In this document: positions 42,182 through 45,474 of the stretch, one piece after another
How positions within the stretch are numbered: the first letter of the stretch is position 1
Layout of the letters: each line of letters begins with the position of its first letter
From: Rhodospirillales bacterium
Lineage (GTDB): Bacteria; Pseudomonadota; Alphaproteobacteria; Rhodospirillales; JAPHRK01
Assembly (NCBI GenBank): GCA_026196105.1
Contig: JAPHRK010000016.1
Span: forward strand, 1-63,085
DNA length: 63,085 nt
Direction: 5' to 3'
Program-made: the position numbers and the translations under genes
Notes under the pieces: model-generated
Databases searched by the model: none
The model's input: only the letters and a program-made list of their open reading frames with translations
What the model was told of the DNA's origin: nothing

Positions 42182-42204
42182 GATATTGGGAGGAAAGTCT
42201 GTAG
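42182..42204 (+). repeat. Direct repeat, copy 1 (bracketing the toxin-antitoxin pair)
   Basis: GATATTGGGAGGAAAGTCT (42182-42200), then GTAG. The same 19 bases occur at 42950-42968, followed by TTAG. The copies are 768 bp apart in the same orientation, with the toxin-antitoxin genes between them. Confidence 0.85.
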
Positions 42205-42212
42205 AAGATGAG

Positions 42213-42545
42213 CTAAATCACATTCGCTGTAATGTGGTCGAAAGGTAGCCGCAGTTCCTCTGTCACAAAGCCGCTTTGCTTAAGAAAACTCACGTCCTTA
42301 TGGACGTTTTTGTAATCCTTGCCTAGCTCCTTGCTTAGGGCGCGTATGCTCTTGACCTCGTGTGTGCTGAGGTGTTTCAAGATATCGTAGCGTGCACTTG
42401 TCAGAGTTTTGATCATGGTATCGTATGATTCAAAGGCAATCGTGCGTTCTTCAAAATCCTCACCCGCCTCGGCCCGTTGCCAAGCCTCTTTGAACTGAGC
42501 CATGGTTTCATCAATGGTTTTGATTTCAAGCTTTACGTCAGTCAT
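42213..42545 (-). CDS. Antitoxin/regulator, HVO_A0114 (MarR-like) winged-helix family; TumA-type
   Basis: A 110-aa winged-helix protein. The region ARYDILKHLSTHEVKSIRAL and the segment ELGKDYKNVHKDVSFLKQSG form the DNA-binding fold. Such genes follow DUF6516/TumE toxin genes as their antitoxins. The start overlaps the toxin stop by 4 nt (ATGA), so the pair is translationally coupled. It probably autorepresses the operon. Confidence 0.82.
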   Translation of the reverse strand: MTDVKLEIKTIDETMAQFKEAWQRAEAGEDFEERTIAFESYDTMIKTLTSARYDILKHLSTHEVKSIRALSKELGKDYKNVHKDVSFLKQSGFVTEELRLPFDHITANVI

Positions 42546-42826
42546 TTGCGGGCTTCCTTCATATCGGCCATAAAATCTGCAATTAGGGTGTCGATGTCGG
42601 TAAAATTGTAGGGAAATTCTTCATTCCCAATATGCCGGTGGTCGCCTTTACCACGTTCATTGTCGTAAGAAACCAAGCGCTTACCGTCCTTGCCGAAGTA
42701 AAGGCTATACTTCAAAGAGTGCTCGGACGGTGGTACTGGTTCCGGTACACGCCAAACCCTAATCTGAAGGATCGCCCCATCCTCCAATATTTGCTTAGTC
42801 TCAAAAAGCAGCTTCGCTTTACCCAT
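42542..42826 (-). CDS. TumE-family (DUF6516) toxin
   Basis: A 94-aa protein with the family pattern ILQIRVWRVPEPVPPSEHSL, YSLYFGKDGKRLVSYDNERGKGDHRH and a C-terminal FPYNFTDIDTLIADFMADM. Known members are ribonuclease-like toxins. It lies immediately upstream of, and overlaps, its winged-helix antitoxin gene. The pair is bracketed by a 19-bp direct repeat, which suggests insertion as a unit. Confidence 0.82.
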   Translation of the reverse strand: MGKAKLLFETKQILEDGAILQIRVWRVPEPVPPSEHSLKYSLYFGKDGKRLVSYDNERGKGDHRHIGNEEFPYNFTDIDTLIADFMADMKEARK

Positions 42827-43247
42827 GGGGAATTATAGGGGAATTATATTATGGTGTCAATGCCATATGGTTATTGTGCCATAGTTTTATTGGGATGTAT
42901 GAGAAGTAAAAGTGTTTTGGTCTAATTTAGTAAACTGTCAACGTAATCCGATATTGGGAGGAAAGTCTTTAGGGAGGGGGTGTTTTCGGCCCGATGTTCC
43001 ACTCGTCAATACCGGACATTAGTGGCCTTGACCTGACAATCTTATTTTTTAGCGTAATTATGTTTTTTATCTCCAAATATTTGTACAAAATGGTTGCTGT
43101 AATTATCTTTTTTTGGAACAAAATGTTAATTTAAATTGAAAGTATACTGAACAATACCATAAAATTCTTCAAAATAAGCAAAATATTTGACTGTAAAATT
43201 TTGTTATGATATTCGTAGTGATAGTTGGCAAGAATTGTAGGTAAGAT
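42827..43247. other. 421-bp AT-rich gap between toxin-antitoxin and ATPase module
   Basis: It holds copy 2 of the direct repeat (42950-42968) and, from about 43030 on, very AT-rich sequence leading to the 75-aa gene. TTGACT at 43187 and TATGAT at 43205 are only 12 nt apart, so no confident promoter can be named. No gene was seen. Confidence 0.6.
42950..42972 (+). repeat. Direct repeat, copy 2
   Basis: Same 19 bases as 42182-42200. The following four bases differ at one position (TTAG versus GTAG). It marks the upstream side of the toxin-antitoxin unit. Confidence 0.85.
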
Positions 43248-43475
43248 ATGAAAAATTCTATTCAAAAACGAGAAAAATTCGTGAAATTAGCGGAAGGACG
43301 TACCCAGTCTGCCCTCACGGCATTGCGAAAAATTGGCAACCTCTCAAATAAGCGCGCTTATGATTACACTGATGCAGACATCAAAAAAATAATCCGCGCG
43401 CTCAAGGAAGCCGTGAGCGACGTTGAACGTAAATTCAACTCGTCAGGCGAACAACAAGACAGTTTCAAATTGTAG
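43248..43475 (+). CDS. Small conserved-type protein paired with GHKL ATPase
   Basis: A 75-aa, strongly basic, helical protein: EKFVKLAEGRTQSALTALRK followed by IGNLSNKRAYDYTDADIKKI and an acidic/basic coiled C-terminus. Small proteins with a LAExRTxxALxAxRxIGNLSN-like core are widespread in accessory regions as I recall them, but their function is unknown to me. It lies 9 nt upstream of the ATPase gene, whose RBS overlaps its stop, so they form one operon. Confidence 0.78.
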   Translation: MKNSIQKREKFVKLAEGRTQSALTALRKIGNLSNKRAYDYTDADIKKIIRALKEAVSDVERKFNSSGEQQDSFKL

Positions 43476-43484
43476 GAGCCTAAA

Positions 43485-45350
43485 TTGACCTCTGAACCAT
43501 TGAATATCGCGGACAAAACGTTTCTAATTAATCGCCTTATCCAACAGGCGCCTCGTTCAACCCTAATTCGTGAGTTTTTCAAAAATGCTGAAGAAAACGC
43601 AGCACTTACCCCTAACGGATTAGGCAAGGTTAAGATTTACCCCGTGGAAATCGAGGGGATTAGGAAGCTAGCGTTTTGGAACACTGGTGTCGGAATGAGT
43701 GAATACGAGTTGAAAAAAGCGACTGATTTAAGCTCTTCTGTTAACAAGACTATGGCGCTTGACGGAAATTTTGGAATCGGCGCTAAAGTTTCTGGGTTGG
43801 CAGTTTCACCTAATGGTATCCGATACCGCTCATGTAAAAATGGTTCCGTTTCTGAAGTAACCGTCGGTTACGACCCTGAACAAGATACTTATGTACGGTT
43901 CGCGTTTGAATTTGAAGACGGGACGACAGACACCATTATTGATGTCACGGAAACGGCAATAGAGGAAGGTCAAAGTTCCGACTACGATTGGACTGAGGTC
44001 GTTTTGATGGGAGAGTCTGACGATCACGATACCATATCAGAGCCCCTCAAACAGGGTGAACTACAAGAACGCAGCTACGTTTCTAGTGAAATTTTCCGGA
44101 GGTTTTCACGTTTTGAAGCTGAACTGGAGGTGATGGTAGATGTAGCTATGACTAAGGGTGGAGGTAAGGAGGAGACAGGACGGTATCGACGCGTCCGCAC
44201 ATTGGAAGATATTTTGCACGACCTCCCAAGATATGAAACATGCATGGACCCCGAAACAGGTATTTCTGTTCGCTACATCCACGATCCGAAACATCAGACA
44301 TCAAGCCATACGGAAAGTGCGCGGAAAATTCCCGCTGTAGCCTCGACAACTTTCTGTGCCCTTGTCTACAAGGGAGAAAGGTATGACTATAAAACGAAGA
44401 AGGCTTGGTCTTCTGCCGCGCCAAATTTTGGAATCCCCTTTGGATCACGTGTGCTGACGGTGGAAATACTGCTGCCAGACGAACTTGCTTCGCCCAATCA
44501 ATACCGAGATGGTCTAACGGACCCAGGTGACCGATCTATTATCGAAGCTCGTGACTTTGATCACCTTGTCCACGAGTTAATGCCTGAGTGGGTAAAAGAC
44601 ATCATCAGGGCAGAATCTCCTAAATCCATAGAAAACCTTGATGATCTCCAAGCTGATCTCCAAAAATTATTGGATGAGTTTCGCGTGCCGACACCGGCAT
44701 TACGAGAACTAAAATCCAAATCCGCACTGCCAATAGAGAAAGATGACTCAGGCCAAGATGAGTCACAACCTGTTTCTGAAGACTTCTCGGAGTTTCCGGG
44801 AAAAATTAATTTTGGCCTCAAACCCCATGACAATGAAATAAATTCAGGACAACGCGCACAAGATAAAAAAGTTCGAACTGCACCGAAAGGAGCAAAGACC
44901 TCAAAGGCTCTTCAAGCCCTTGAGAGGGTGCCAAATATTACAGTGTTAGACGACCCTGAGGAGATTAATGATAAGGGTATTAAGGGGCGAGCCGCCAAGT
45001 ATTACAAAGATAGCCAAGAAATTTTTGTAAATGGTCTGTATCCTGTGGTTGACCGGATGTTTGCTGAACTTGAAAATGAAATGGTGACGGAAGGTGAACC
45101 AGAAGAACGTCGTGCAGTAATTGTCAAAGCGGCACGTCGATCAATGGCTTTTCGCGTAGGCAAAGCAGTGTGTTACGCAATAAGTAAGCGTCTCTCGGAT
45201 GACTGGAATTCTGATGCTTTGGACAAGGCAACTTCACCCGAGTCGCTCTCTCTTGCTGCCGACGACTTTCGACAAGGATTGAATGAGGCAAAAAGATACG
45301 CACGTGTCCAGTTGAAAATTATGGAAGTAGAGAAGCTAAAGGCCGTCTGA
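43485..45350 (+). CDS. Stand-alone GHKL (Hsp90/MutL-type) ATPase of unknown function
   Basis: A 621-aa protein with the Bergerat ATP-binding fold at the N-terminus. It has the N-box REFFKNAEENA (E30, N34), the G1 box WNTGVGM (residues 65-71, with N66 where most members have Asp) and the G2 box GNFGIGAKVSG (94-104). There is no histidine-kinase phospho-acceptor, receiver or membrane segment. A middle domain (about 110-400) is followed by a lysine-rich, low-complexity linker (about 400-480) and a helical C-terminal domain containing RRSMAFRVGKAVCYAISKR. It starts at TTG 43485 with AGGAG 6 nt upstream. It sits in an accessory region, which suggests but does not prove defence or phage origin. Confidence 0.88.
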   Translation: MTSEPLNIADKTFLINRLIQQAPRSTLIREFFKNAEENAALTPNGLGKVKIYPVEIEGIRKLAFWNTGVGMSEYELKKATDLSSSVNKTMALDGNFGIGAKVSGLAVSPNGIRYRSCKNGSVSEVTVGYDPEQDTYVRFAFEFEDGTTDTIIDVTETAIEEGQSSDYDWTEVVLMGESDDHDTISEPLKQGELQERSYVSSEIFRRFSRFEAELEVMVDVAMTKGGGKEETGRYRRVRTLEDILHDLPRYETCMDPETGISVRYIHDPKHQTSSHTESARKIPAVASTTFCALVYKGERYDYKTKKAWSSAAPNFGIPFGSRVLTVEILLPDELASPNQYRDGLTDPGDRSIIEARDFDHLVHELMPEWVKDIIRAESPKSIENLDDLQADLQKLLDEFRVPTPALRELKSKSALPIEKDDSGQDESQPVSEDFSEFPGKINFGLKPHDNEINSGQRAQDKKVRTAPKGAKTSKALQALERVPNITVLDDPEEINDKGIKGRAAKYYKDSQEIFVNGLYPVVDRMFAELENEMVTEGEPEERRAVIVKAARRSMAFRVGKAVCYAISKRLSDDWNSDALDKATSPESLSLAADDFRQGLNEAKRYARVQLKIMEVEKLKAV

Positions 45351-45430: not shown

Positions 45431-45474
45431 AAAGAAAAAGCCCCGCCCAGTTCACCAGGCGGGGCTTTTTCTTT
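45431..45474. terminator. Bidirectional terminator between ATPase and isocitrate dehydrogenase
   Basis: AAAGAAAAAGCCCCGCC (45431-45447) and its exact complement GGCGGGGCTTTTTCTTT (45458-45474) form a 17-bp stem with T-tracts in both directions. Confidence 0.95.

Follow-up and report, generated by a model that had tools for sequence, protein, structure and literature searches.

The small gene and its ATPase partner

We analysed a 63,085-nucleotide contig of a Rhodospirillales bacterium (JAPHRK010000016.1), here called the window, and within it a pair of genes on the forward strand: a small open reading frame (ORF) and, 9 nt downstream, the gene of an ATPase of the GHKL superfamily (Table 1). 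An earlier note, made from the letters alone, had described the two as tightly coupled. This agrees with the short gap, with the likely ribosome-binding site that lies over the upstream stop codon, and with the presence of both genes in all 12 loci compared below. The TTG start of the window ATPase is in register with the starts chosen for nine close relatives.

Table 1. Positions of the module, its motifs and nearby signals in the window, and of small-gene homologues in phage and viral records
Feature	Sequence	Position	Strand	Basis or remark
Small gene, 75 aa, ATG start	window	43248..43475	+	ORF
GHKL ATPase gene, 621 aa, TTG start	window	43485..45350	+	ORF
TAGGAG, likely ribosome-binding site of ATPase, overlaps small-gene stop codon	window	43473..43478	+	sequence
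N box, E30 to N34 of ATPase	window	43572..43586	+	E30, N34 invariant 13/13
G1 box NTGxG, Asn66	window	43680..43694	+	N66, G68, G70 invariant 13/13
G2 box NFGIGA	window	43767..43784	+	N95, F96, G97, G99, A100 invariant 13/13
Possible sigma-70-like promoter, 10/12 consensus matches, in AT-rich upstream stretch	window	43136..43165	+
Perfect 17-bp inverted repeat, 10-nt loop, flanking A/T runs; possible terminator	window	45431..45474	.	repeat search
Small-gene homologue	L024	3995-4273
Small-gene homologue	L025	3983-4204
Small-gene homologue	L128	2712-3521
Small-gene homologue	L129	557-805

The small protein is basic (17 lysines and arginines, 10 aspartates and glutamates) and helical, as had also been noted. 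Its AlphaFold2 model (predicted local distance difference test score, pLDDT, 87) has helices at residues 2-33 and 42-64, followed by a disordered linker and tail. The helices form a hairpin with the loop motif IGNLSN, and the protein ends in an FKL tail. An IGNLSN-like loop was present in 18/18 sequences of one alignment (A1) and 22/22 of another (A4), and a C-terminal F-[KRTS]-[LIF] tail in 16/18 and 21/22, respectively. No Pfam, PADLOC or PDB family fits this protein. Eight of 18 members matched DUF4145 at E <=0.1 (best 0.0036), and the window protein scored 16.3 bits against a curated cut-off of 23.1. HEPN RNases carry the motif R-x4-6-H. A HEPN (DUF4145-like) identity was dropped, the matches being weak and the alignments containing no conserved histidine.

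The pair recurs as a unit in lineage A

Searches with the ATPase yielded relatives at 56-80% identity on six genome contigs and on plasmids of Dinoroseobacter, Agrobacterium and Rhizobium, and in all nine the small gene was directly upstream. Two further relatives with 34-35% ATPase identity (L078, L079) came from the small-gene survey described below. We refer to these ATPases as lineage A. When ORFs of >=70 aa within 8-10 kb were compared between the window and the 11 other loci carrying the small gene, the small gene and the ATPase were common to 12/12, and every other family occurred in at most two. We searched 100 genomes of the order, counting that of the window, and found a full-length ATPase in the window's genome only; two others gave ATPase matches of 77-78 residues with E near 1e-3. 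The distant plasmid relatives in Acidisoma (33%, L013) and Caballeronia (24%, L014) had no small gene in the stretch examined. Plasmid and mobilisation contexts occur among the lineage-A loci, several of which lie on plasmids beside conjugation genes, and many module loci are chromosomal. Because the pair is conserved in differing surroundings, patchy in distribution and accompanied by no other shared gene, we take it to move as a unit. We conclude that the small gene and the ATPase form a real, mobile two-gene module that is more than a chance arrangement.

The small gene adjoins several GHKL lineages

We surveyed genomes with the small-protein profile A1, which is blind to the ATPase and was seeded mostly from lineage A. 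Matches were found in 21/385 genomes of the class and 9/398 of the phylum, some genomes being in both sets. Places with E below 1e-15 were taken as strong; 25 were distinct, the window included. At 23 of these 25, a GHKL gene was next or next-but-one to the small gene. Despite the lineage-A-heavy seed only four belonged to lineage A, the others being distributed over two further lineages, B (eight) and C (nine), and a fourth type (two; L063 and L064). Lineages A, B and C were not joined by BLAST at 1e-10, and the fourth type gave no BLAST match to any of them at 1e-3. The two copies of the fourth type have the same layout as each other, with a 219-aa gene between the small gene and a 558-aa GHKL protein that passes HATPase_c_3 (47.2 of 25 bits). 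An Ensifer locus (L017) apparently holds a further GHKL type by motif, for which Pfam gave nothing. As controls we took 16 stretches from the same genomes, each 10 kb long and some 100 kb distant; 0/275 ORFs (>=150 aa, overlapping frames included) matched the three ATPase profiles or the small profile, a count that leaves aside other GHKL genes such as histidine kinases.

The two strong places without a GHKL gene next or next-but-one were L068 and L073. In L068 (6233-8459) the small gene lies 160 bp upstream of a DUF262 (GmrSD-like) protein, as read by eye. Seven weaker rows (E 5.4e-4 to 1.9e-8) in G396 (two), G240, G107, G418, G338 and G163 are outside the count of 25; those in G396 (3352523 and 3352662) are pieces of one broken small-gene copy. 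Lineage-C genes were cut short or interrupted in L069, L071 and L074. Interrupted copies of the lineage-C module (L075, L069, L074) suggest module decay.

Pfam HATPase models recognised 0/12 lineage-B ATPases and 2/8 of lineage C, the best below cut-off (2.6e-4; 21.5 of 25 bits). Because this recognition is poor, the GHKL label of lineages B and C leans on motifs and on an N-terminal profile link. Lineage B shows RExxQNSxDA, DxNTxGL and GGSFGIGK in order, and lineage C ExxxNxxDA, DxGEGQ and QGKxNMG. Full-length profile-profile comparison of the lineages was not significant (Prob 1-3). With an N-terminal profile enlarged by viral relatives, lineage A was linked to B (Prob 91, E 1.1e-6) and weakly to C (Prob 52, E 1.5e-4); B and C stayed at Prob 3 even then.

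We conclude that, as judged from sequence, several divergent GHKL lineages have the small protein as a common neighbour, at least four of them not joined by BLAST. The ATPase had been called stand-alone: it does belong to a true two-gene module, but represents only one of the several GHKL lineages with this small protein. No description of this protein or of its pairing with an ATPase was found in the literature searched, bioRxiv itself being outside the search. PADLOC has no model that fits the small gene, probably because the gene is short and unannotated. What is new is a widely shared, previously unrecognised small subunit beside GHKL ATPases, and the finding points to a gene unmodelled in the defence library searched.

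Motifs and predicted fold of the ATPase

The N, G1 and G2 boxes of the window ATPase occur in order, as the earlier note had read them, and the residues listed in Table 1 are invariant in all 13 aligned ATPases. The G1 position of GHKL proteins is usually Asp. Asn66, which replaces it here, is a conserved trait of the lineage since it is invariant in 13/13; lineages B and C keep an invariant Asp in the G1-like motif. The protein divides into an ATPase and transducer-like region (residues ~1-378), a variable linker (~401-475) and a conserved C-terminal alpha/beta-helical domain (~480-620).

The window ATPase stays below the Pfam HATPase cut-offs (16.5 of 25 bits), and its relative L079 passes HATPase_c (26.9 vs 26.4 bits). 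No kinase, MutL-endonuclease or Shedu nuclease domain was found by Pfam, and specifically no DUF4263 match at E 1. There was no HisKA/DHp Pfam match either, and no third gene is shared across the 12 loci, which speaks against a histidine kinase with a receiver partner. The window proteins gave nothing significant in NCBIfam, PADLOC or PHROG, the Pfam matches of the pair being sub-cut-off only; the ATPase had no PADLOC match at E 1 and hence none to PDC-M33A (see below). Against PDB sequences, neither the ATPase nor any of the profiles (the small one and the three of the ATPases) gave a GHKL or other meaningful match. The window ATPase thus falls in no curated family found here: a profile search for a characterised family, which the earlier note had named as a possible refutation, reached only the GHKL superfamily.

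An AlphaFold2 model of the ATPase was built from a nine-row alignment, its C-terminal domain (~481-610) reaching pLDDT 76-87 by blocks. Foldseek matched the model to HtpG, DNA-bound MORC2, TopVI-B, MORC3 and SMCHD1 (E 2.4e-8 to 2.1e-7). In VIA-align, residues 1-241 matched the GRP94 N-domain with Z 14.2, and Hsp90 chains, aligned over ~1-378, reached Z 13.3; MutL was absent from the rows listed (50 Foldseek and 50 VIA). Alignment with the Hsp90 N and middle domains over 1-378, on a low-confidence model, may or may not correspond to the GHKL plus S5 architecture of paraMORCs. Judged by its modelled fold, the window ATPase joins a GHKL domain to a transducer-like second domain and resembles MORC, Hsp90 and topoisomerase VI. 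Of the features that the sequence had seemed to lack, kinase and MutL-endonuclease domains are indeed absent from the Pfam results, but an Hsp90 likeness, together with MORC and TopVI-B, emerges in the fold search.

The best Z scores, those of Hsp90/GRP94 N-domains, would fit an Hsp90-like stress chaperone with the small protein as co-chaperone. We regard this as very unlikely given the patchy, mobile distribution, and the same fold is shared with MORC and topoisomerases. The likeness to Hsp90/HtpG concerns the ATPase and middle-domain fold; the window ATPase differs by Asn66 in G1 and by its mobile two-gene context.

According to Iyer et al. 2008 (PMC2292703), the restriction operons that contain MORC and paraMORC1-5 proteins also encode methylases, Vsr and helicases; other paraMORC relatives and HEPN fusions to paraMORCs are described in PMC8011034 and PMC3710099. 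The window lineage resembles them in its N-terminal GHKL region, perhaps in the transducer-like part that follows, in its sporadic and lateral spread, and in having MORC2 and MORC3 among its best fold matches. It differs in possessing a small partner, of which the part of the PMC2292703 text consulted makes no mention, and in the MORC motif GhXhhpXXRhl (from the same source), which as a regular expression was found in 0/13 ATPases of lineage A, 0/12 of B and 0/8 of C. The Shedu type I-D protein VcSduA is a fusion of GHKL and DUF4263 Shedu nuclease with anti-phage activity (PMC12137116). It is likewise a GHKL ATPase in a mobile defence region, whereas the window ATPase has no nuclease-domain match and has a separate small gene. 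The portions consulted of these four papers and of a jumbo-phage review (PMC7824862) contain no description of this gene pair.

ATPases and small genes without each other

In a search that started from the ATPases, the small gene adjoined the ATPase in 2/6 genomes for lineage A, 5/18 for B and 5/9 for C; among the remaining genomes, a contig end or a match to a C-terminal piece only prevented a judgement in G402 (A), G368 (B), G176 and G361 (C). The small-positive loci were the top-scoring places for A and B, a ranking biased by query alignments made almost wholly of small-positive members. One strong lineage-C match (G152, 614 bits) had no small gene.

Among plasmids, we examined 12 of 15 small-gene records, leaving out three near-duplicates by organism. 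A GHKL gene adjoined the small gene in 8/12 (in Ensifer by motif only). The four without such a neighbour were L015, L016, L022 and L018, in addition to a second place (L130) on one record; in L018 the small ORF is shortened and an IS3-family transposase comes next. In the phage records S-CRES1 and MT837361 and in viral contigs L128 and L129 (Table 1), the small gene had no recognised GHKL neighbour in the stretch examined. The L129 gene lies shortly before terminase and portal genes, as read by eye. Viral contig L127 carries the small gene with a lineage-C ATPase. Relatives are not confined to prophage structural regions, the other outcome that the earlier note had named as a possible refutation.

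The order of the genes and their tight coupling resemble type II toxin-antitoxin pairs. Together with plasmid carriage and the existence of solo small genes, this would suit an addiction module in which a toxic ATPase is restrained by the small protein, made first. Antitoxins, however, evolve fast. Here the small protein was more conserved than the ATPase in 32/36 pairs within lineage A, is common to ATPases unrelated by BLAST, and is missing from many ATPase relatives, and we consider addiction distinctly unlikely. The two sets of identities correlated with r 0.93 over nine taxa, a value inflated by shared ancestry.

ATPase relatives with 22-38% identity were carried by 26 viral contigs (L084-L109), three of them >330 kb, and were mostly ~570-700 aa where complete. 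None of the 26 had the small gene in the stretches examined, a viral scan with the window small protein found nothing, and 10 viral ATPase relatives tested gave no PHROG family at 1e-3. Orthologues of rIIA are called GHKL counter-defence proteins in the jumbo-phage review. RIIA resembles the window ATPase in its GHKL N-terminus, variable C-terminus and length of mostly 600-900 aa; it differs in that no small gene stands beside the viral relatives examined. The pair could in the same manner serve its carrier element, shielding it from host exclusion systems as RIIA serves a phage. In a viral fold library, 15 of the 50 rows listed were named RIIA or RIIA-like (best 1.1e-7), and the viral relatives and the plasmid loci beside conjugation genes point the same way. 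The RIIA matches nevertheless stem from a fold that GHKL proteins have in common, and giant-virus proteins hold the top two scores among the named viral matches. With the small gene missing from the examined stretches of the viral relatives and PHROG families from the 10 tested, and many module loci chromosomal, such a counter-defence role is unlikely, though it retains some weight.

Defence and modification genes near the module

The PADLOC models PDC-M33A, B and C matched 5, 3 and 3 proteins of the tested set (best PDC-M33A, 9.7e-210). We take PDC to mean 'phage defence candidate'. The same numbers of lineage-B ATPases, second genes and DUF6339-type third genes had been entered, and the assignment is by count, there being no per-protein rows. 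Lineage B is therefore the PADLOC candidate PDC-M33. Its ATPases match PDC-M33A and also follow a small gene of the window's family, whereas the window ATPase belongs to another lineage with no PADLOC match, no shared third gene and no methyltransferase nearby. In a PADLOC set of 22 proteins, one matched MzaA (6.9e-7) and one PglW (1.5e-5); the output does not name the proteins.

A 5-methylcytosine (m5C) methyltransferase and Vsr were found nearby in 10/12 and 9/12 lineage-B loci and in 3/12 and 2/12 lineage-C loci (L017 and L127 included), respectively. The profiles were seeded largely from B loci, which match by construction, and the stretches differ in length. Neither gene was found in the stretches examined of the 12 lineage-A loci (window included), of 8 other small-gene loci and of the 16 controls; a dcm gene annotated in the record at the edge of L019 was left out of the methyltransferase count. 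An m5C methyltransferase also lay directly upstream of the ATPase in 4 of 10 small-less loci examined (L143, L144, L146 and L160, with lineage-B/C ATPases; gaps -53 to +55 nt), that is, in the small gene's place. These neighbours, and the proposal made for paraMORCs in PMC2292703, suggest that the pair might be a minimal offshoot of modification-linked restriction that works with methyltransferases or nucleases encoded elsewhere. Lineage A does not fit: both genes are at 0/12, and there is no restriction-modification linkage of the paraMORC type, as no further family is shared by more than 2/12 loci (helicases were not searched by profile). We judge this reading unlikely.

The earlier note had proposed looking for defence genes around relatives, and some relatives have them. 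GajA and GajB follow the module, within one gene in Dinoroseobacter and immediately in Agrobacterium (L010 and L011), as read from the best 25 of 108 families listed and mapped to these loci by annotation. Further annotations in the Agrobacterium record are a caspase-family protein, a restriction endonuclease and an AbiE pair, and the Rhizobium locus has a restriction endonuclease. By eye we recognised a metallo-beta-lactamase/E2-like/patatin cluster in L003, a reverse transcriptase in L079 and a TIR-like ORF in L005. The link to defence is thinner for lineage A than for lineage B.

A proposed role in defence against invading DNA

Taken together, sequence and neighbourhood make defence the likeliest role of the module. 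The fuller reading that we favour, tentatively and with rather less than even confidence, is a mobile two-subunit module for defence against invading DNA, in which the small subunit would gate an ATP-driven clamp. Made first, this subunit would dock on the ATPase through its hairpin and C-terminal F-[KR]-L tail and thereby gate it. On binding ATP, the dimeric ATPase would shut like a clamp, in the manner of MORC and topoisomerase VI-B; that it would shut on DNA is proposed by analogy with MORC2, MORC3 and topoisomerase VI-B. The clamp would take hold of invader DNA or a complex on it and block use of that DNA, probably physically or through host enzymes, since no nuclease was seen. Since the small protein varies less than the ATPases do, it probably reads something constant, such as the core that the ATPases have in common or a shared signal.

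Several points weigh against this defence reading. The clamp and its DNA target would rest on fold analogy, the ATPase model is weak (pLDDT 60; predicted template-modelling score, pTM, 0.35), and Foldseek gave low TM-scores (0.26-0.44 by target for the MORC rows). Nor do the fold comparisons of this model separate MORC from Hsp90, which scores equally well. The defence neighbours of lineage A were counted without a matched control, and by eye no defence gene was recognised in L001, L002, L004 or, the toxin-antitoxin pair aside, the window. The small gene is an add-on, being absent from the more distant members of every ATPase lineage, and some plasmids and phages carry small genes that have no recognised GHKL neighbour.

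A bolder version seems doubtful to us, if worth stating: the small protein might be a plug-in regulator of immune GHKL ATPases, acquired independently by at least four lineages in several phyla, both two-gene and restriction-modification-linked ones, and reading one infection signal, with the solo phage copies (S-CRES1, L025, L128 and L129) as jamming decoys. MORC-type GHKL ATPases turn up repeatedly close to genes of restriction and defence, and little is understood of their activation in bacteria. A small protein conserved across lineages offers a handle on the whole class: one binding site, one tail motif and one mutant set.

Surroundings of the module in the window

Upstream of the module, on the minus strand, Pfam identified a TumE toxin (PF20126, 3.2e-15) and a PF25212 partner (2.9e-18) at 42213-42826, in keeping with the toxin-antitoxin pair noted there before. 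A 23-bp direct repeat (96% identical; 42182-42204 and 42950-42972; 768-bp spacing) flanks this pair, which looks as if it were a small insertion of its own beside the GHKL module. The module had also been thought to differ in composition from its flanks. This foreign base composition was rejected: among the 38 window ORFs of >=200 aa, whose GC content is 0.460 +/- 0.022, the ATPase gene has a GC content of 0.458 and ranks 18/38 in codon distance. Only the 408 bases upstream of the pair (42840-43247) are AT-rich (GC 0.321). In that region seven promoter-like sites were counted, compared with 4.1 (sd 1.9) in shuffles, and support for the possible promoter in Table 1 is correspondingly weak. The terminator scan, limited to loops of 8 nt, did not list the inverted repeat with its longer loop. 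This repeat sits between the ATPase gene and a convergent downstream gene, which encodes a monomeric isocitrate dehydrogenase as read by eye.

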